In this document: positions 19,252 to 28,510 of the stretch, piece by piece
Position numbering within the stretch: the stretch's first letter is position 1
Layout: every line of letters begins with the position of its first letter
Origin: Acidimicrobiaceae bacterium
Lineage (GTDB): Bacteria > Actinomycetota > Acidimicrobiia > Acidimicrobiales > Acidimicrobiaceae
DNA length: 52,401 nt
Direction of reading: 5' to 3'
Assembly (NCBI GenBank): GCA_013044385.1
Contig: JABEUN010000040.1
Coordinates: forward strand, 1 to 52,401
The notes under the pieces: model-generated
The model's input: only the letters and a program-made list of their open reading frames with translations
Database searches by the model: none
Told to the model about the DNA's origin: nothing
Program-made: the position numbers and the translations under genes

Positions 19252-20654
19252 ACGGCGGCCAACAGGCTCTGTAGGTTCGAAGTGACAGTCGAGATCACCT
19301 TCGCAGCGGCTTGATAGCCCTGTTGATAGTTGACCATCGAGACCATCTCATTGTTGACGTTCACGCCCGAGACGGCCTGGACGGCCTGGAAGGCACTCTG
19401 GTAGTTCGTCTGAGCCGCCTGAAGGGAGGAGTTGGCATTCGCCACGTCCGTCCCAATCCCTCCCGAGGCCTGCGACCAGAGCGCGTCTGGGCCAGTTGTC
19501 AGGTTGGATAGTTCCGCCCACGCCTGGGCATTGCTTCCATCTCCCGGCGCTGCTACTGCGGGAGGTGCCGGCGTTGCCGCTGCGGCGATGCCCCAAAGTC
19601 CCGGGTCAGTAGCCGTGGGTGTCGTAGGTGTGTTGGCAATGTTTGGATTTACGGCGATCGAAAAGGCGCCAGATGTGCCCACGGTCGTCAGATTGAAAAA
19701 GGGCATCGAGGTTGCCGAGATCGGCGTGGTCGACCCCGGAAGAAAGTACGACCCCTGGGCCTGCTGGGCATTGACAACGCTATTGAGAGACTGAGCGACG
19801 CTGAGAAGTTTTTGCTGATAGTTAGGAATCTGGCTATTGACTGCGTTGAACATGGCTCCCAAGGACCCCGTTGTTGGAGTAGCTGGGGCCGCAACTCCCG
19901 ATACGGTGAGGGAGTAGGGCACTCCAGTTCCCGAGAGCGAGACCTGATTTACCAAATTGCCCTGTACGAGCATCACGCCACCGAGAAGTACGTTCACCGT
20001 TCCGTCGCTATTCTGCTGCACGGTAGCACCTGTCATGGAGCTCAACTGGCTGAGGATTTGGCTCTGCTGATCGATGAGTGTTTGATCAGTCTGAGTACCC
20101 GCAGCGTGGATCTGCCCGTTTAGAGAGCCGAGCGTCGCGAGCATCGAATTTAACGATGTCACCTGGCCCGAAATCGCGTTCTGAGTGCTCTGGCTTAGAC
20201 CTTGAAGGAAGGTGGAACCCTGGTTGAGGGTGTTTGAGATGTTCTGTGCATTTGCCACTACCTGCTGCCTCGCAGCGAGCTGTGACGGATTGTTCGCCAC
20301 CTGATCAAGAGACGACCAGAAGCCCGCAAGCTGTTCGGATATGCCGGTCGGAGATGGCTCCTGGAATACCGTCATGATCTGGGATAAAACCGACTGGGAC
20401 TGTTGTGCGCTGGCCTGTACAGATCCCGCGTTCAATTCGATGTTGGTCTGGAACTGATTGGAAACCTGACCAATCGACGACACCTGAACTCCGGTTCCAA
20501 CCCCTGAGGCCGGGTCGACCGTTGCATTCAGGTTCACCTGTTCTCTTATGTAACCGGGAGTGTTGGCGTTCGCAATGTTCTGTGAGACAGTGTCCAAGCC
20601 GGTCTGAAAGGCGTTCAGACCGCTAGAAGCGATGTTCAGCGCCGCGCCTGTCAT
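19248..20654 (-). CDS. flgK: Hook-associated protein FlgK (HAP1)
   Basis: FlgK forms the junction ring between hook and FlgL. The N-terminus is typical (LNIASSGLNAFQTGLDTVSQNIANANTPGYIREQ), and the C-terminus has the conserved VSGVNVNNEMVSMVNYQQGYQAAAKVI region. The 468 residues include a helical section rich in Gln and Ser. It is coupled to both neighbours by 4-nt overlaps (flgN upstream, flgL downstream). Confidence 0.95.
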   Translation of the reverse strand: MTGAALNIASSGLNAFQTGLDTVSQNIANANTPGYIREQVNLNATVDPASGVGTGVQVSSIGQVSNQFQTNIELNAGSVQASAQQSQSVLSQIMTVFQEPSPTGISEQLAGFWSSLDQVANNPSQLAARQQVVANAQNISNTLNQGSTFLQGLSQSTQNAISGQVTSLNSMLATLGSLNGQIHAAGTQTDQTLIDQQSQILSQLSSMTGATVQQNSDGTVNVLLGGVMLVQGNLVNQVSLSGTGVPYSLTVSGVAAPATPTTGSLGAMFNAVNSQIPNYQQKLLSVAQSLNSVVNAQQAQGSYFLPGSTTPISATSMPFFNLTTVGTSGAFSIAVNPNIANTPTTPTATDPGLWGIAAAATPAPPAVAAPGDGSNAQAWAELSNLTTGPDALWSQASGGIGTDVANANSSLQAAQTNYQSAFQAVQAVSGVNVNNEMVSMVNYQQGYQAAAKVISTVTSNLQSLLAAV

Positions 20655-21127
20655 GCGATCTGACTCACAAGGCTGAAGTTCTTACTATCTACCGTGCCAT
20701 TGGCTTGGTATGTGTTGGGTACTCCGAGCACCCCACCAAGCAGTTCGTCAATCAGGTCCAAGCGTTGGGTCAGAAGACCGCGCAACACACCCACGAGAGC
20801 CTCGATCCGGCGTAGTTGTTCATTCATCTCCACCCTGGTCGTGGTGAAGGTAAGCGCCCACTCAGCAGGAGCCTTCTTTGCGATCTCAGTGAGTGGTGAA
20901 TTCGGATCGATTCCCAGGCTCGCCGCATACGCCGCCGACTCCTTGCGCCGCCGATCATCCACCGTGTCCATCTGGGCGCGGATCACCGCCACCTCTTGGC
21001 ACGCCTTGGCAATCCTGTTGTGTCGTCCTGCTCTGGCAACCAGTTCCAGCGCCTCGAGCCGAAACTCAAGTTCGTCCAGTAACGTCTTCTGCTCCCAGAG
21101 GATCTGTGCGAGGTTATCTGCAACCAT
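20651..21127 (-). CDS. flgN: FlgN-like chaperone
   Basis: The 158-residue helical protein matches the FlgN pattern: an N-terminal LWEQKTLLDELEFRLEALELV helix pair, a central helix, and a C-terminal coiled coil. FlgN keeps FlgK and FlgL unfolded for export, and it is encoded directly before flgK here, with a 4-nt overlap. The sequence itself is weakly conserved, so position carries much of the call. No Shine-Dalgarno precedes the ATG, and the proposed promoter places the transcription start at or next to it. Confidence 0.8.
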   Translation of the reverse strand: MVADNLAQILWEQKTLLDELEFRLEALELVARAGRHNRIAKACQEVAVIRAQMDTVDDRRRKESAAYAASLGIDPNSPLTEIAKKAPAEWALTFTTTRVEMNEQLRRIEALVGVLRGLLTQRLDLIDELLGGVLGVPNTYQANGTVDSKNFSLVSQIA

Positions 21128-21167: not shown

Positions 21168-22490
21168 CTACCTAAATTCCCTTGAAAATGGCCATCTACG
21201 TGCGTTGAGTCTCACCGATCGTGGAGGAGTTCTGCCCTGTATCAACACTGCTGTGCCATTCGGTTGCTCTCTAATGCTCAGATTCGGAAGCCGCGAAGGG
21301 CCATTACCTATGAGCGCCTCGGCAAGAGCGAGGGTCTCAGGATCGGAAATTCCGGGAAGAAAGAGCTTGGAACGGTGATTGTTGACGACCGTATTTGAGG
21401 CCAGACCGTAACACGTTCTCAGCTGAGAAATATCCTGGAGCGCAGTGAGCAACAGGACCCCGAGGCCAGATCCCACACTTGCCAACTCCGCGAGTTCCGG
21501 AAGTGGAGCTGTATTCGCCGCCTCATCTAGAACTACCAGCGTCTTATCTGTGCCGAGAACCCCCGATCTTGCCAGCGCCCGGTCGATCAACAAAGAGTTC
21601 AGCGCTGCGAAGTACGGTGCAAGTCTCCTCTGGTCCGACAGCGGCGAGATCAGGTAGATGGTGAAAGGGGATACACCTGCGGACAGTGCCCTGACAGAGG
21701 TCAGGCTCCCCGCCTTGGTGAGGTGTTGGATCGCCGAGACGATGGGCTCAAGAACCGCTGTAAGTGTAAGTAGGACCGAGGAGAGTTGCTTCTCATCCCA
21801 GTATCGAAGCGAGTCGAGGCAAAGCCGAGCGTCTTTGTCCCCAAAAGGATCCAATCTCTCGAATGCAGGCTCGAGCGAACCCGCCGAGATCCAATCCATT
21901 ACGAGGGGGACTCCACCGTCCATCCTGTTTGCCGCCAGCAACAGCGGGGCCAACGTCCTCTCCGCAAGTGTGTACCAAAATCTCGACTCACTTGATGCCG
22001 TCTGAAACCCGACCTGAGAGACCGATAGCAGGTTCGCTACCCGCCTCGCCACTTTGAAGTCATCGCAGTCGAGTACCGGATCCCACATGATGTCACTCGA
22101 TTCGCCCGTGAGTCCGAGTCTGAACACCTGCGAGATTGCACTTCTTCTACTACTAGTAAGATTGACTATGTCATCCTTAACACTGGTAACAATCGCTGAA
22201 CCCTGCCAAGCATTAAGTATTGGCGCTATAACATCTCGGGTCTTCCCCGATCTGGTAGGACCAAATACGACGACCGACGAGCCCCGTTCCAAACTCTTAA
22301 GCAGACCGGGACTCCATGGCCAACTCCGGTCGCCGAACCACCGAGCAGATAAAGTCGGCGTGGCAGATCGCATTGCCGCGGCGCTATGGCCACTGGTCCG
22401 ACTCGCCCTCTGATGTCCGGCCTCTCGATCACGCAGTAAGAAAAGTCCGGCCAAGCCGAGCAGTACTACCCCAAGTACAGAAGCGTGCAA
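21168..22490 (-). CDS. VirD4/TraG-like coupling ATPase
   Basis: The 440-residue protein has an N-terminal membrane segment (LGVVLLGLAGLFLL, about 5-18), a Walker A GPTRSGKT near residue 77 and a Walker B LVVLDEA near residue 315. The order and spacing fit the type IV coupling protein family, which feeds substrates to a type IV secretion channel. It begins at a TTG 2 nt after the VirB4-like gene, so the two are coupled. It is shorter than many VirD4 proteins and has no obvious extra domain. No relaxase lies nearby, so the substrate may be protein, or this is a piece of a larger dispersed system. Confidence 0.82.
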   Translation of the reverse strand: MHASVLGVVLLGLAGLFLLRDREAGHQRASRTSGHSAAAMRSATPTLSARWFGDRSWPWSPGLLKSLERGSSVVVFGPTRSGKTRDVIAPILNAWQGSAIVTSVKDDIVNLTSSRRSAISQVFRLGLTGESSDIMWDPVLDCDDFKVARRVANLLSVSQVGFQTASSESRFWYTLAERTLAPLLLAANRMDGGVPLVMDWISAGSLEPAFERLDPFGDKDARLCLDSLRYWDEKQLSSVLLTLTAVLEPIVSAIQHLTKAGSLTSVRALSAGVSPFTIYLISPLSDQRRLAPYFAALNSLLIDRALARSGVLGTDKTLVVLDEAANTAPLPELAELASVGSGLGVLLLTALQDISQLRTCYGLASNTVVNNHRSKLFLPGISDPETLALAEALIGNGPSRLPNLSIREQPNGTAVLIQGRTPPRSVRLNARRWPFSREFR

Positions 22491-22492
22491 AG

Positions 22493-23707
22493 TCAGCTCA
22501 CTTCGGTCCTTGTGCTGAATTTGGCCGAAGTTCTAATCGCATCGTCCGTGTCGGTAATCGGCTGTTCACTTGGATGGAGTCTGTGGGCAACCATGGACAG
22601 TCTGTCGCCGACCTTCCAGAGGGCCACGCCCTTGCGCAGTCTCGGCAGTGAACTTGCCACCGGATGGGGAATAGCCAAGAACCGCCTCATCGCCTCTGAC
22701 TCCGAGGCTGGTTGGGCATATACAACGAAGGTCTCCGAGTCCAGCGCAAGTCCCGCAGAGGACTCAGCACCGGCTCGACTAAGGTCAGAGAGTCTGTGCT
22801 GAACTGCGACGTTGGCTATCCCGTGCGACCGAGAAAGTTTCCACAGCGATGCGAACCAGTCGACTACCGTCGCACCCTTCAACAGGGCCCATGCCTCATC
22901 CAAAACGAAGTAGGAGCCTTTTGCTCCCCTTCCTGCAAGGAGGCTCTGTCGATGGCTCAAAAGCAGATTGACAGTTATTCCCAACGCCGCGGTCCCGACC
23001 AGTGATGACAGATCTACGACCATGGAGCCGGTGTCAAATAACGAGTCCCCATCAGTTGCGACTAGGCCGGCCAGATCTCCATCGATCAGCCTCCTCACCT
23101 CGGCCGCAAGTCCCAGTCGGACCCCGACCTCAAGGGTGGAATAGGATTCCGGCGATTCGAGGAGACCTCTGTGTAGCTCGACCACATCAACCAGGCCCCT
23201 GCGCTGAATCGACGATCTGATCGACTGGTCAACGAAGTGACGCTCGATCGGATCCAATCTCCTTGCGATCACAGCCTCGACAAGGTCGTAGCTTGCAAGC
23301 ACCAGACGCGCCAGGTTTGCAGCTGGCTCCAAAGCTGCGTCGTAGCCGGGGAATGGATTTAGGCCAAGTCGAGTCCTAGCGGAGGGTTGAATCCTTCTGG
23401 CGCCTGTCAGCTTGCATAGACCTTCGTACTCACCTTTCGGATCGAGTACAAAGAACTCATGTCCGGATAGGTATTGGCGATATAGAAGTGACTTGACTAG
23501 GGCAGACTTCCCCCGTCCGATCTGTCCGACTACAACCATATTTAGGTTCGTAAGATACCCATCTTCATACAATCTGAACGGGTCATACCGAAACACCCCG
23601 CCTTCGAAGTCGTTACCTATCGGGACTCCCCGTCCAGGCTTCGGAGATGAAGTAGGCGGAAAGAAGACCGACATGCTCGTCGAGGTCTCATACATTCGGC
23701 TCCTCAT
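22493..23707 (-). CDS. VirB4-like secretion ATPase
   Basis: The 404-residue protein has Walker A GQIGRGKSAL near residue 60, an FFVLDPKGEYEGL segment typical of VirB4/TraC near 86, and Walker B YFVLDEAWALL near residue 265. Only the ATPase part is present; the usual N-terminal VirB4 domain is missing, and the SCO6880-like gene upstream may supply it. This split layout is known in actinobacterial conjugation elements. Its start overlaps that gene's stop by 4 nt. Confidence 0.82.
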   Translation of the reverse strand: MRSRMYETSTSMSVFFPPTSSPKPGRGVPIGNDFEGGVFRYDPFRLYEDGYLTNLNMVVVGQIGRGKSALVKSLLYRQYLSGHEFFVLDPKGEYEGLCKLTGARRIQPSARTRLGLNPFPGYDAALEPAANLARLVLASYDLVEAVIARRLDPIERHFVDQSIRSSIQRRGLVDVVELHRGLLESPESYSTLEVGVRLGLAAEVRRLIDGDLAGLVATDGDSLFDTGSMVVDLSSLVGTAALGITVNLLLSHRQSLLAGRGAKGSYFVLDEAWALLKGATVVDWFASLWKLSRSHGIANVAVQHRLSDLSRAGAESSAGLALDSETFVVYAQPASESEAMRRFLAIPHPVASSLPRLRKGVALWKVGDRLSMVAHRLHPSEQPITDTDDAIRTSAKFSTRTEVS

Positions 23708-25074
23708 CTGATCGAACCTCCCGTGACGAAGCTGGCCAGAAAGGTCTCGAGCTGCCTACCATACGCCCTCTCGAGGGTGATGCCCGAACTCGCGGCGAGT
23801 GATACGCACCGCCGGACGTCCAGTTCCAGGTCCACTGAACTTCTCGAGTAGACAACTACGGTGCACCCGTAACCGAAAAGCCCAGCTCCTCGGGCGAGTT
23901 CCCCCTCGATCCTAAGATTCTCACCCATCGATGCCTCGTCACCCGCATCTTCTAGATAGCCGGTTGAACGTCTGAGTCGACCTTGAGCAATGGCTTCAGA
24001 GACCTTAGATCTCGTCTTCCTGCGTGCAATTTCTGGACTGATTGGCCTGAACTCCATCATGACACTCCTCCTCGGCGCCACAGGAGTGAGAACCGAGTCC
24101 ATAAACCCTGGCGAGACCTCTCCGTTGGGCCAATCCTTCACGTAAAGACAGGCGATCTTGGTGTCATCCACGACTATCCGATCCCAGAACTCCATGACCC
24201 GCTGACCAGCTCGGGCCGAGCGGTCACAGCTGTACCAATTCGCATCGCCTAGCAGCCAGTTCGAGGCGACCCTCTCCAGATACGCATCACTGAGCAGTTC
24301 GAGCAGCGGATTTTTTGCCTCCCCGGCGAGCTGAGAAACAAGCAGCCTCGCTGAGCTGTCCACCCTCGTTTGGATTCGTTTCAGTCGTCGCTGCGATTCG
24401 CCGAAAGCAACAGAGACCGTGGTCTCAAGCCTGTAACTGCCACTTCGGATCAACTGGTCCAGCTCCACAAACAGGCCAGCTTCCTCTTCCGAAGTCGAGG
24501 CAGAGTCCTCAATGACGTCGGATCGAACCACGATCGAAAGATCTCTAGGTGCGCCATCTGAAAGAGCAACGAGCGCCTGCGACCAAGTTCGCCCTTGGGA
24601 AAGCTGGAGGTCAGGTTCTACTGCCCACAGTGGATTGGTAGCAACTCGAAACACCTTGGCGCTCCGACGGTGATTGGTTATGAATCCTGCACCCGGGGTT
24701 ATCCCAAAGAGCGCGAATCCCACCTGAGGCATTCTTTTTCGACTGTGCTGCCAGATCGCATTCAGGCCAGATGTTGGCAAACGCCGTTTCCGGTTTACAA
24801 ATGGCAGGCGCGCACTGCGGACCAGAGCCTCGATCGGCGACTGACCGAATACCTTGATTCTCGCCAGAAGCAGTCCAAATCCGGGAAAGGCGACAAAACT
24901 TACAATCGAGCCGAGTCCAGAGCCTATAGAGACTCCAACGAGTAGGCCGATCAATCCTCCGACCGATACACCGACCAGGTCGAGTCGGCTTAAGCCCAGT
25001 AGCAGCCTACTGGAGGCGGGCCTTGCTAGATGGACTCCCGAACTCCTCGGTGTTGCGGAATGGATGGAACTCAT
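23704..25074 (-). CDS. SCO6880-like type IV secretion membrane protein
   Basis: The 456-residue product starts at an ATG overlapping the upstream stop (ATGA). Two membrane segments (about 26-65, LDLVGVSVGGLIGLLVGVSIG and following) precede a large soluble part. This PrgI/VirB3-like membrane hairpin plus soluble domain is typical of the SCO6880 family, which in actinobacteria pairs with a truncated VirB4. The frame is open a further 23 codons upstream, but that stretch lies inside the preceding gene and is basic and unlikely. Confidence 0.72.
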   Translation of the reverse strand: MSSIHSATPRSSGVHLARPASSRLLLGLSRLDLVGVSVGGLIGLLVGVSIGSGLGSIVSFVAFPGFGLLLARIKVFGQSPIEALVRSARLPFVNRKRRLPTSGLNAIWQHSRKRMPQVGFALFGITPGAGFITNHRRSAKVFRVATNPLWAVEPDLQLSQGRTWSQALVALSDGAPRDLSIVVRSDVIEDSASTSEEEAGLFVELDQLIRSGSYRLETTVSVAFGESQRRLKRIQTRVDSSARLLVSQLAGEAKNPLLELLSDAYLERVASNWLLGDANWYSCDRSARAGQRVMEFWDRIVVDDTKIACLYVKDWPNGEVSPGFMDSVLTPVAPRRSVMMEFRPISPEIARRKTRSKVSEAIAQGRLRRSTGYLEDAGDEASMGENLRIEGELARGAGLFGYGCTVVVYSRSSVDLELDVRRCVSLAASSGITLERAYGRQLETFLASFVTGGSIR

Positions 25075-26168
25075 TCTCCGCCTCCAGTCGCACCGGGATC
25101 TGGAGAATTGAAGTCTGGAAGATGGTTGTAATCGCCGTCCCAATCTGAGAGAGCTTCAGGCTTGCCATAACCAGTCCAGCTGGCAAGCCGTTGCATGACC
25201 GGCGGTTCCCCCGATACGAAACTGACGGTAGATGCCTGTCCAAACTGCAGATTTGCCGCCGACGCCCAGGTTCTCGGAATCCGAAGTAGCGCCCTCGACC
25301 CAGCCTGCTCCAGGGCCGTTGCGGCCTGAACCTCGGCGAAAGGAACGAGCCTCACCAAAGCATAAGGCGATACGAGGGTAACCAGCAGCATCGCTAGACC
25401 CTCAACTAGCACACCAAATCCGGCACCGCCCGTTGACATCGAACTACTAATTGCCCCCACCGCAAGAGAGAGCGAAATTGCAATGACTACCTTCACCAGG
25501 ATCAGTCCGGAAAGCACCTCCAGGACCCGCCTGAGCCAGTGCCTAGTTGCTGAAGCGAGCATCCCGAGCGCCGCAATCGGAACCAGACAGATCAGGAGGT
25601 AGATTGCTGCCGCCCTTACCACCATCTCAATCCAGACTCCCATCACAGCGAACGCCGATATCAGGATCAGACCAGGTCCGACCACCGTCGGTACTGCGCT
25701 CGAACCGATTAGTAGATCAGAAATCCGAATTAGCCCTCCCCCACCGTCGGCTCCGCCGAGGATTTGAGATGAGGCGAAGTCTGCGAAGTAGTTCAGTCCA
25801 GATGCTGCATACAACGTGACTGCAGTGGCAGCGGCCGACGCTGGGAGCTGCAGAATCGTCAGTTTAAGCAGTCTGGAGGGTGACCCTTCGAAGATGCTCT
25901 GAACCACTCCTATTAGCAGTACAGGCAGTGCCAGCGAGCTGGCGACCACCTCCACCATCGTCAGGTTGGATAGCAGGAAAGGAGAGCTCAATCTCACCTG
26001 TGTAGTAGTGGTGAATGCCTTAGAAAGACCGTTGACAGCCGAGATGAAGTAGCCGTCTATACCGCGCCGTACCAACGAACCGATGACGTTAAGAATCGCC
26101 CTGACCACAGTGTCAAAGGGAAATATGGCTGCCGAGACGACGTGGCTGTCCGACAAGTTAGTGGACAC
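25071..26168 (-). CDS. VirB6/TrbL-like polytopic membrane protein
   Basis: About 365 residues with several long hydrophobic segments (for example FLLSNLTMVEVVASSLALPVLLIG region, LILISAFAVMGVWIEMVV, YLLICLVPIAALGML and VEGLAMLLVTLVSPYALV). The size and topology fit VirB6/TrbL, the inner-membrane channel component. I propose the GTG at 26168, which overlaps the end of the VirB2-like gene by 11 nt. The frame remains open upstream, but that part lies inside that gene. The Shine-Dalgarno is weak, so the exact start is uncertain. The C-terminal 60 residues are soluble. Confidence 0.7.
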   Translation of the reverse strand: MSTNLSDSHVVSAAIFPFDTVVRAILNVIGSLVRRGIDGYFISAVNGLSKAFTTTTQVRLSSPFLLSNLTMVEVVASSLALPVLLIGVVQSIFEGSPSRLLKLTILQLPASAAATAVTLYAASGLNYFADFASSQILGGADGGGGLIRISDLLIGSSAVPTVVGPGLILISAFAVMGVWIEMVVRAAAIYLLICLVPIAALGMLASATRHWLRRVLEVLSGLILVKVVIAISLSLAVGAISSSMSTGGAGFGVLVEGLAMLLVTLVSPYALVRLVPFAEVQAATALEQAGSRALLRIPRTWASAANLQFGQASTVSFVSGEPPVMQRLASWTGYGKPEALSDWDGDYNHLPDFNSPDPGATGGGE

Positions 26169-26448
26169 CTTGACCAGCGTGAAAGAAGAAGTTGACCAGA
26201 GTGGGAGCAGCACCAATGACCACTGCGGCACCTCCCGATGCGATGACGGCCTTCCGGCCGGAGTAGGACTGCTGGTAGTTGTTGGAGTGGGAACCGATCG
26301 CCCACATACCCGCCCCGACAATGAGGCCTATCAGAGCGATCATCAGGGCCCAGCCAGCAATTCCGTTCGTAACCTGTTGCAGTAGGTCCCCGCCAGGTAA
26401 TGAAGTGACGTTCGGCGTTAGCGTCACGTCCAAGAGCATCCTGCCCAC
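26158..26448 (-). CDS. VirB2-like small membrane (pilin) protein
   Basis: The 96-residue protein has two hydrophobic helices (about 31-51 and 69-84) separated by a short polar loop (SHSNNYQQSYSGRK). This is the shape of VirB2/TrbC pilins and of the small first proteins of actinobacterial secretion operons. It starts at a GTG behind AAGGAGGG and is the first gene of the five-gene operon. I see no clear signal peptide. Confidence 0.65.
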   Translation of the reverse strand: MGRMLLDVTLTPNVTSLPGGDLLQQVTNGIAGWALMIALIGLIVGAGMWAIGSHSNNYQQSYSGRKAVIASGGAAVVIGAAPTLVNFFFHAGQGVH

Positions 26449-26514
26449 GACGATCCCTCCTTGGATATTCGCCCCACTCTGGAGCTGGCATCATATTAGC
26501 ATATTCCACATGTT

Positions 26515-26543
26515 TTCATTCTATTTCAACAACCTTCTATATT
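26515..26543 (+). promoter_or_regulatory. Candidate housekeeping promoter for the sensor kinase gene
   Basis: TTCATT (26515-26520) and TATATT (26538-26543) are separated by 17 nt in an A/T-rich gap between the divergent secretion operon and the kinase gene. The -10 matches 5 of 6 consensus bases; the -35 is weaker. The secretion operon must be read from the same gap in the other direction. Confidence 0.35.
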
Positions 26544-26588: not shown

Positions 26589-27809
26589 ATGGCCGATGCA
26601 AGAGCGCAATGGTCCAGGCCGGTAGTTACTTTCGGCGATGCCGCTACTCTTTCAGTGTCTATGGACTCGCTGCTCATCTACGTGGCCACGGCTTTGGCGT
26701 CACTGATCGTGGGCGCGGCGATCGGCATACTGCTCATCCGACGTAGGTCGCAGATCCCAAAGATTTCGTCCGCCCAAACCGTTGGAGTGGTCGCTAGAGA
26801 ACGAAAGTTCGAACTTTCCACCGCATCACTCGACTCGTTGGAGATCGGTCTGGTTATCTGTGATCCAGATGGCGAGGTCGTTTTTCGAAATAGGCAGGCG
26901 TCGTCCATAATGAACGGACGCCATCAGGATGCTCTGGCGGCGAAGGCCTTAGAGGACCTGATAGGCCTAGCAAGACTGGAGAACTACTCGGAGAGAACTT
27001 TCGAGCTGTACGGTCCTCCTAGGCGCTCATACAAGATCCTGACCAAACCCCTGCACCAGGACGACAGGAGGGTAGGATTCCTCGCCCTGTTAGAGGACAT
27101 CTCGGACAAACGGCATCTTGACGAGGTTCGAAGGGACTTTGTCGCCAACGTGTCACATGAGCTAAAAACCCCGATCGGGGCGATACAGCTCCTAGCCGAG
27201 ACACTGGAGGCCGAGGATGAGATGGCGGTGATCAAACGCCTTTCAAACCGAATCCAGCTCGAAGCGATCCGTGTAGGGCGGATCATCGAGGACCTTTTGG
27301 ACCTTTCACGAATCGAATCTGAGGAGACAGCGATCCAAGACGTCCTGTCTGTTGCAGGTCTCATAGACGAAGCCGCATCTAGGATGGAGCCGTCGGCCGA
27401 TGTTCGGGGGGTATCTCTCGACCGCGGCTATGTACCGGAAGATGTATACGTCTTGGGAGAGCGTCGCCAACTGATTTCTGCGATCTACAACCTGTTGGAC
27501 AATGCAGTGAAGTACTCAGACCCAGGGGAGAGGGTCTCGGTATCAGCAACCAACAACACGGAGTGGGTCGATGTGACCGTCAAAGATGAAGGCATCGGCA
27601 TTCCATCCAGGGATGTCGAGCGAATCTTTGAGCGGTTCTACCGAGTCGACCAGACCAGGTCGAGGGCAACTGGGGGTACCGGACTCGGCTTGGCAATCGT
27701 CAGGCACGTAGTCAACAATCACAAGGGGCGAATCATCGTAGAGTCGAGAGAGGGCGTCGGTTCGACGTTCACACTCAGACTCCCGCTAGCCGATCCCGAG
27801 GAGCCATGA
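26589..27809 (+). CDS. senX3: Sensor histidine kinase, SenX3/PhoR-like
   Basis: This is a membrane sensor kinase of 406 residues: one membrane segment (about 28-51), a PAS-like domain (about 80-170), HisKA with phospho-accepting H190 (FVANVSHELKTP), and HATPase with NLLDNAVKYSD and GTGLGLAIV. The order matches SenX3, which with RegX3 responds to phosphate limitation in actinobacteria. An internal ATG at 26661 gives a more usual short N-terminus. Neither candidate has a Shine-Dalgarno. Its stop overlaps the response regulator start. The signal here is inferred, not shown: no pst gene is nearby. Confidence 0.87.
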   Translation: MADARAQWSRPVVTFGDAATLSVSMDSLLIYVATALASLIVGAAIGILLIRRRSQIPKISSAQTVGVVARERKFELSTASLDSLEIGLVICDPDGEVVFRNRQASSIMNGRHQDALAAKALEDLIGLARLENYSERTFELYGPPRRSYKILTKPLHQDDRRVGFLALLEDISDKRHLDEVRRDFVANVSHELKTPIGAIQLLAETLEAEDEMAVIKRLSNRIQLEAIRVGRIIEDLLDLSRIESEETAIQDVLSVAGLIDEAASRMEPSADVRGVSLDRGYVPEDVYVLGERRQLISAIYNLLDNAVKYSDPGERVSVSATNNTEWVDVTVKDEGIGIPSRDVERIFERFYRVDQTRSRATGGTGLGLAIVRHVVNNHKGRIIVESREGVGSTFTLRLPLADPEEP

Positions 27810-28510
27810 GCAATAGCCAGACGACCATTCTTCTAGCAGAAGACGAAGAGTCTTTTATAGAGGCCCTACTACTTGGACTCAAACGAGAGGGATTTCTCGT
27901 CGAAGTCGCACGAGATGGCGAGGAAGCGCTGAGGAAGTTCGACAGCGTCCGCCCGGACCTTCTACTCCTCGACGTGATGCTTCCGAGACGATCGGGTTTG
28001 GATGTGTGCCGAGAGATACGCACCAAGTCCAGAGTCCCTATAATTATGGTTACAGCACGTACTACCGAACTCGATACTGTCGTTGGGCTCGAGGTAGGCG
28101 CTGACGATTACGTATCCAAGCCATACAGGATGAAGGAGCTGGTCGCGAGGATCAGGGCAGTACTCAGGCGAACTCCGCTGGACGAGAAGCCTGTGGACAA
28201 CTCCGAACAGCTGGACCTAGGCGACATCAACCTAGATTCCGCAAGACACGAGGTACACGTAAGAGGGGAGCTGGTCAAGCTACCGCTCAAGGAGTTCGAA
28301 CTTCTGGAGTTTCTGATGTCGAACGCTGGGCGGGTGCTCACGAGGGACACAATCATCGATCGGATCTGGGGACCTTACTACGGCGGTGACACAAAGACGC
28401 TTGATGTACACGTCAAGAGGCTTCGGTCAAGGATCGAGGTCGATCCGTCCAACCCGAAAACCATCACCACGGTGAGAGGACTCGGGTACCGATTCGAGAT
28501 TCCGAGATAG
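27806..28510 (+). CDS. regX3: OmpR/PhoB-family response regulator, RegX3-like
   Basis: The 234-residue protein has a receiver domain (acidic E12/D13, phospho-acceptor D56, T83, K105) and a C-terminal winged-helix DNA-binding domain (LVKLPLKEFELLEFLMSNAGRVLTRDTIIDRIW). It overlaps the kinase gene by 4 nt and is its evident partner. It would bind DNA when phosphorylated. The Fur-family gene starts 7 nt later and may be in the same transcript. Confidence 0.92.
   Translation: MSNSQTTILLAEDEESFIEALLLGLKREGFLVEVARDGEEALRKFDSVRPDLLLLDVMLPRRSGLDVCREIRTKSRVPIIMVTARTTELDTVVGLEVGADDYVSKPYRMKELVARIRAVLRRTPLDEKPVDNSEQLDLGDINLDSARHEVHVRGELVKLPLKEFELLEFLMSNAGRVLTRDTIIDRIWGPYYGGDTKTLDVHVKRLRSRIEVDPSNPKTITTVRGLGYRFEIPR

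Follow-up and report, generated by a model that had tools for sequence, protein, structure and literature searches.

Conjugation is usually attributed to plasmids and integrating elements. Chromosome-encoded DNA transfer that involves no mobile element is also described, as distributive conjugal transfer in Mycobacterium smegmatis, which is ESX-based, and as transjugation in Thermus, which according to the accessible part of its description operates without type IV secretion system (T4SS) or relaxase homologues. On the gonococcal genetic island, a chromosomal T4SS and a relaxase export chromosomal DNA (PMC12857230, accessible sections). In Streptomyces coelicolor, the chromosomal T4SS-like operon cmdABCDEF (SCO4126-4131) is conserved in other Streptomyces, encodes CmdB, which is VirB4-like, along with SCO6880-like and SCO6881-like proteins, and affects sporulation and chromosome segregation; the accessible sections of that account mention neither a relaxase nor VirD4 (PMC2782261). 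Here we describe a T4SS gene cluster in a 52,401-nucleotide stretch of DNA (hereafter the window) from an Acidimicrobiaceae bacterium (GCA_013044385.1, contig JABEUN010000040.1), whose genome comprises 2.8 Mb in 95 contigs.

The cluster has the same genes in the same order, VirB2 (DUF6112), VirB6, SCO6880, VirB4 and VirD4, as a plasmid of Iamia sp. SCSIO 61187 (NZ_CP050950.1), but the plasmid carries a linked MobF relaxase, whereas in the window's genome the parts are dispersed on the chromosome. The gonococcal system is F-like and sits on one island (PMC12857230, accessible sections), whereas the system described here is spread over separate conserved loci in 20 families of our order sample. 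We found no published account of such a dispersed chromosomal system among titles and abstract openings, in a coverage that left out preprints and most subscription papers. We consider it probable that the five genes encode the channel, or mating-pair, half of a dispersed, vertically inherited chromosomal conjugation system in Acidimicrobiales. In such a system, a TrwC-type relaxase encoded at a separate fixed site would nick chromosomal DNA at a putative origin of transfer and remain bound to it; a coupling ATPase, either a second type encoded elsewhere (T4CP2) or the VirD4 of the cluster, or both, would carry the relaxase-DNA complex to the membrane; and a channel of VirB2, VirB6, the SCO6880-like protein with the VirB4 N-domain and the split VirB4 ATPase would export the DNA to another cell.

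Channel genes, relaxase and coupling ATPases

The cluster consists of five coupled minus-strand genes (26448 to 21168) whose neighbouring stops and starts overlap or lie 1-2 nt apart:

26158..26448, minus strand: VirB2/TrbC-like pilin (DUF6112), first gene, with 55-67% identity to 13 relatives of the same family
25071..26156, minus strand: VirB6/TrbL-like membrane protein, SCO6881-like by weak match, likely start TTG at 26156
23704..25074, minus strand: SCO6880-like protein with N-terminal helices and a predicted VirB4 N-terminal domain fold (model residues 114-456), likely start ATG at 25074
22493..23707, minus strand: VirB4-like ATPase with the C-terminal ATPase domain only, Walker residues intact
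21168..22490, minus strand: VirD4-like coupling ATPase (T4CP1), matching T4SS-DNA_transf (1.3e-17) and TraG-D_C (2.9e-14)

An initial annotation had described five coupled genes of these types in front of flgN, and both the open reading frames (ORFs) and the Pfam and NCBIfam matches agree with it. The pilin matched DUF6112 above the cut-off (1.2e-9) and both TrbC (3e-5) and T4SS_pilin (2.1e-5) just below it. Matches of the VirB6-like protein to the SCO6881 family (6.3e-8) and TrbL (0.09) were weak and below the cut-off; its TTG start was chosen because it lies 1 nt past the virB2 stop. The SCO6880-like protein matched its family at 4.1e-22. The VirB4-like protein matched the TraG P-loop domain (4.9e-8) and, using an alignment, the VirB4-like structure 4ag5 (8.5e-28), and its Walker residues are invariant across 15 alignment rows.

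The initial annotation also held that the machine has no relaxase. This is true of the locus, none of whose genes encodes one, but not of the genome: a TrwC relaxase of 792 aa, the only one we found there, is encoded at a conserved chromosomal site (G000:C13), which rules out a genome lacking the enzyme. With the relaxase at a distance, its absence nearby had wrongly been taken as absence from the system. TrwC relaxases (PF08751, over the cut-off) occur in 40 of 42 genomes of the host's own family and in all 20 good ones, compared with 1 of 14 controls (E. coli), and some of the own-family matches are second, probably mobile-type copies. The profile matched TrwC and TraI structures, with TrwC 1omh at 5.6e-41. 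An N-terminal Tyr, together with the His residues in H..SR..DPHLHSH, is invariant across all 20 own-family loci read, in motif rows cut around a chosen Tyr; L175 and L177 have a single Tyr. The usual neighbours are CofC, an LmbE-type deacetylase, an acyl-CoA synthetase, a WYL/PafC regulator, CtaG and TypA, and at least one of them was present in 18 of the 20 own-family loci (not L176 or L186). The same holds for 18 of 20 other-family loci (not L215 or L230, both short). Another gene of these neighbourhoods is an adenylate cyclase by Pfam, and an aminotransferase-like gene precedes the relaxase in L171, L173, L176 and L186. The His motif (EPHLHDH in some members of family f23) and at least one N-terminal Tyr are likewise conserved in the 20 loci read in other families. 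In f23, whose genomes are ~1.5-2.7 Mb, the relaxase is 335-500 aa long; in loci L220-L227 and L230 the chromosomal relaxase is little beyond the catalytic domain and adjoins T4CP2.

T4CP2, a second VirD4-like type, lies at a third conserved chromosomal site (G000:C38 in the window's genome) and was readable in 21 of 24 own-family genomes. The gene stands between a CaiB-type gene and thiL, and at least one flank of the arrangement MurF, Ddl, CaiB, T4CP2, ThiL, PckG was common to all 21 loci. Mean column identity was 57% for T4CP2 versus 36% for the VirD4 of the cluster, the VirD4 alignment being the more diverse. Among the matches listed with both coordinates, 36 of 63 genomes from other families have T4CP2 at most 6 kb from a relaxase. 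Relaxase/T4CP2 pairs are on opposite strands in 31 of 40 cases and on the same strand in nine (families f16, f21, f38 and f47). Of 20 loci read in other families, 13 contain both genes, and in all 13 the two genes face each other.

Conservation, co-occurrence and a shared promoter element

The pilin is present in 36 of 42 own-family genomes and in 19 of 20 good ones, so the cluster is not confined to one strain, one of the conditions that the initial annotation had named as contrary to its proposal of a fixed chromosomal device. That proposal is borne out by the recurrence of all five genes, with order and context unchanged, in the own family and in other families of the order. Over the 397 order genomes the pilin profile matched 139, of which 113 were strong (≥89.7 bits) and of the chromosomal type. 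Among 20 loci read in other families of the order, 17 have the full set of five genes in unchanged order; contig ends truncate L129 and L145, and L140 is without a detected VirD4. A kinase is divergent from the pilin in 18 of these 20 loci (exceptions L132 and L147), and serS lies within the stretch read in 12. Over 396 genomes of the phylum the pilin profile matched 39, and loci from other classes have the same gene order without kinase and regulator.

Some loci carry further features. In L131:13303-16976, three consecutive copies of a stretch resembling the beginning of virB4 are present; two copies lie within shorter ORFs that precede the intact gene. Genus g99 has a second, distant pilin in three genomes (L125 = G127:C10, L126 = G133:C31, and G147:C26); in the two loci read it belongs to an additional T4SS cluster, probably a mobile element, whose VirB4 and VirD4 genes are separated by a gap.

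Channel, relaxase and T4CP2 co-occur across the order. The relaxase profile matched 197 of the 397 order genomes, with matches in 110 of the 113 strong-pilin genomes versus 87 of the 284 others; outside the own family the counts were 93 of 96 versus 86 of 283. Strong T4CP2 matches (≥299 bits) were found in 108 of the 397 genomes, in 99 of the 113 with a strong pilin versus 9 of the 284 others. By family, T4CP2 was present in 19 of the 20 families with a strong pilin and in none of the rest, taking 61 families as sampled. Relaxase distances correlated with VirB4 distances (0.866; N = 23), as did VirB4 distances with those of the neighbouring regulator (0.712; N = 37).

The channel genes of many loci and the relaxase genes of several families have a promoter element in common. 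In the window it lies between virB2 and a divergent kinase gene:

26504..26528, minus strand: phased 10-bp repeat TGAAA-N5-TGAAA upstream of virB2, a likely operator
26589..27809, plus strand: histidine kinase (Pfam), divergent from virB2, a conserved neighbour
27806..28510, plus strand: OmpR/PhoB-type response regulator (Pfam), a conserved neighbour and putative regulator of the cluster

Of 52 loci, 27 have TGAAA-N5-TGAAA at most 250 bp upstream of virB2, in a single orientation, compared with 1.2 expected. Allowing up to one mismatch, the window holds two matches, both upstream of virB2; their number is that of chance (mean 2.24 in shuffles) and it is their placement that counts. Among 11 loci from families other than the own family and f23, 8 also have a site of this type at most 200 bp upstream of the relaxase, versus 0.08 expected; these 11 loci (of 40 relaxase loci read) and the threshold were chosen after the first motif results. 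The control search upstream of T4CP2 stayed at chance (1 of 28 at p ≤ 0.033; simple pattern 0 of 30). A scan for sigma-70 promoters and terminators was uninformative (1 promoter-like site versus 2.2 expected, 7 terminator-like versus 4.4 expected). We take the kinase to be SenX3/PhoR-like and the regulator to be RegX3-like, and the repeat presumably resembles a CpxR box; as a guess, the neighbouring response regulator could be its binder.

Several points weigh against a dispersed conjugation system. As the initial annotation had also said, no VirB8-like or cell-wall lytic gene is in view: among the genes of the five-gene locus there is no relaxase, transglycosylase or VirB8-like gene, the transglycosylase search having covered the locus. 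TcpC (PF12642), the sole VirB8 family tried, matched none of the 42 own-family genomes and 1 of 14 controls. Three of the 113 strong-pilin genomes have no relaxase match, and 14 have no T4CP2 at or above 299 bits, although three of these 14 have partial matches (263-272 bits). The relaxase matches include mobile relaxases, and the order genomes are related to each other, so p-values of the co-occurrence are overstated. Both cut-offs were set with the scores in view, that for T4CP2 after they were seen and that for the pilin after a gap (next score 83) was seen. Pairing of T4CP2 and relaxase within 6 kb was not seen in 27 of the 63 genomes outside the own family among the matches listed, the two genes lie apart in the own family, and some of the same-strand pairs may be mobile. 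The promoter element upstream of the relaxase was at chance in the own family (1 of 20 loci) and was found in none of 9 loci of f23. Outside the own family, VirB4 distances correlated at r = 0.012 with those of the kinase (N = 16) and at 0.465 with those of the regulator (N = 14), leaving strict vertical descent of the locus there unproven; kinase and regulator distances themselves correlated at 0.381 (N = 14). Finally, a conserved relaxase motif would not by itself prove nicking.

A split VirB4 and the SCO6880/EccE kinship

The SCO6880-like protein was modelled from a 38-row alignment (pLDDT 79, pTM 0.81). Its residues 114-456 superposed on residues 15-383 of TrwK/VirB4 with Z 23.9 and an rmsd of 3.1 over 311 aligned positions. 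Since this protein is predicted to carry the VirB4 N-domain fold and the next gene encodes the ATPase domain alone, the model indicates that VirB4 is split across two genes. The model also has N-terminal helices, and PrgI matched 6 of 38 relatives (best 0.00035), the window protein not being among them. When the SCO6880 alignment was searched against Protein Data Bank (PDB) sequences, a single weak match (0.024) was returned.

The fold is common to the SCO6880-like protein (window 23704-25074) and type VII EccE (PDB 6umm, 6sgz, 7b9f). The model matched a chain of the ESX-3 structure 6umm, which we take to be EccE3, with Z 16.4 over 269 aligned positions, and oxidases followed below with scores of at most 7.5. 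The Pfam EccE model matched 17 of the 38 members of the SCO6880-like family but not the window protein. The shared fold and these matches suggest that EccE and a VirB3/VirB4-N protein have a common ancestry. Kinship of SCO6880 with EccE is already implied by Pfam, and a limited literature search found no published statement of it; the accessible part of the 2019 ESX-3 paper reports weak homology of EccE3 to glycosyltransferases, with 5FXF as the top DALI hit (PMC6986878). Together, the split VirB4 and the SCO6880/EccE kinship would bear on the relationship between type IV and type VII secretion.

Alternative explanations and what the parts suggest

We weighed four other explanations for the cluster. 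The one that survives best, which we nevertheless regard as unlikely, is that the channel was retained for a purpose other than DNA transfer, for example as a pilus, in protein secretion or in the cell cycle, the last having been suggested for cmdABCDEF, and that the relaxase is kept for another reason. A phenotype of that kind is described for the S. coelicolor operon, which includes SCO6880- and VirB4-like genes, and loss of cmd left transfer of an SLP2-derived plasmid unchanged, according to the accessible sections (PMC2782261). VirB2 is also better conserved (mean column identity 78%) than the SCO6880-like protein (35%) or VirB4 (42%), and the locus has no transglycosylase. Set against this, the catalytic motif of the relaxase is kept, the relaxase co-occurs with the channel, and the two have a promoter element in common in several families. 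Moreover, both VirD4 and the second coupling ATPase are kept, which would be superfluous for a pilus alone. Identity with the Cmd system of Streptomyces is unsupported by our VirB4 tree, in which the Streptomyces-type locus L164, which we infer to be cmd-like, groups with plasmid and element-type rows.

A second alternative, which we judge somewhat less probable again, is that chromosomal DNA is released into the medium in the style of the gonococcal island and then taken up by other cells through competence. Relaxase, channel and coupling parts fit this equally well, and the gonococcal relaxase and chromosomal T4SS need no cell contact; that system, however, dispenses with its pilin (PMC12857230, accessible sections), whereas here the pilin is well conserved.

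That the cluster is the remnant of an integrated mobile element, beside flagellar genes by chance, is very improbable. The same gene order does occur in relatives on a plasmid and on probable mobile elements, but the site and order are constant across many genomes and families and the ATPase motifs are intact. In the VirB4 tree, a branch with SH-aLRT support of 96 splits plasmid, element-type, other-class and Streptomyces rows from the Acidimicrobiales chromosomal rows, and the own family forms one side of a branch (94). This was a quick, unrooted tree with several long branches, built from 66 of the 68 rows of at least 300 aa; the two omitted rows were L032, from the same contig as L069, and L068, a stretch of 4.6 kb. 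The marks of an integrative conjugative element, a variable insertion site and a linked relaxase, were not found: synteny extends across families, and no relaxase is at the locus. Synteny and the tree together led us to reject a remnant.

The mobile relatives have parts that the window locus lacks. The two other-class loci tested, L148 and L150, look mobile because a transglycosylase (SLT) gene lies nearby. The Iamia plasmid (L168) has a VanY/SLT cell-wall gene, and its cluster contains two further genes, one of 287 aa between virB2 and virB6 and a small HTH gene ahead of VirD4; MOB-suite calls this plasmid non-mobilizable despite its MobF relaxase and T4SS genes. A gene of 215 to 287 aa occurs between virB2 and virB6 in three mobile relatives (L148:9333-9980, L151:9813-10526, L168:29255-30118); it has no Pfam match in these three and is a candidate VirB8-like part.

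Own-family loci typically have the order Fur, response regulator, histidine kinase, the divergent five genes, flgN-K-L, fliW, csrA and cheA, although L081 and L118 (genus g100) have no such kinase and regulator beside the pilin. In the window the gene that follows the cluster is:

20651..21127, minus strand: flgN, head of the flagellar run flgN-flgK-flgL-fliW, observed as a neighbour in the own family only

The flgN start at 21127 lies 40 nt past the VirD4 stop and is followed by flgK, flgL, fliW and csrA, the last on the plus strand. A flagellar gene directly follows the cluster in 18 own-family loci, the window included, and some other loci end at contig ends. No flgK follows it in L073 and L074, where a 147-aa ORF at the flgN position (L074:9047-9490, L073:10811-11254) is only a candidate FlgN; G136, one of these two genomes, has no FlgK-profile match. 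A special tie to flagella did not hold up, and the flagellar link is secondary. That the cluster serves the flagellum, for example as an assembly or anchoring device, is hardly credible, its position in those 18 loci notwithstanding, and we reject this view: the 20 loci read in other families, some of them truncated at contig ends, have no FlgN, FlgK, FlgL, FliW or CsrA match beside the cluster; the pilin is kept in five of the eight own-family genomes (of 42) without a FlgK-profile match, including G134 and G136 (91-92% completeness); and csrA directly follows VirD4 in L076, L078, L119 and L120.

DNA transfer is the most economical reading of the parts, because we know of no other use for the catalytic residues of the relaxase. 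We tentatively put forward, as a possibility rather than an expectation, that much of the order carries an innate, vertically inherited chromosome conjugation, with separate conserved channel and relaxase/coupling loci and, in several families, a common operator, for regular exchange between cells and not for the spread of a mobile element. The host bacteria may thus exchange chromosomal DNA through a built-in machine, without a plasmid. Lack of a nearby relaxase is a poor indication that a T4SS moves no DNA. If a dispersed conjugation system is indeed what these loci encode, conjugation parts at separate conserved sites in ~20 families would mean that a lineage took over conjugation for its own gene exchange.

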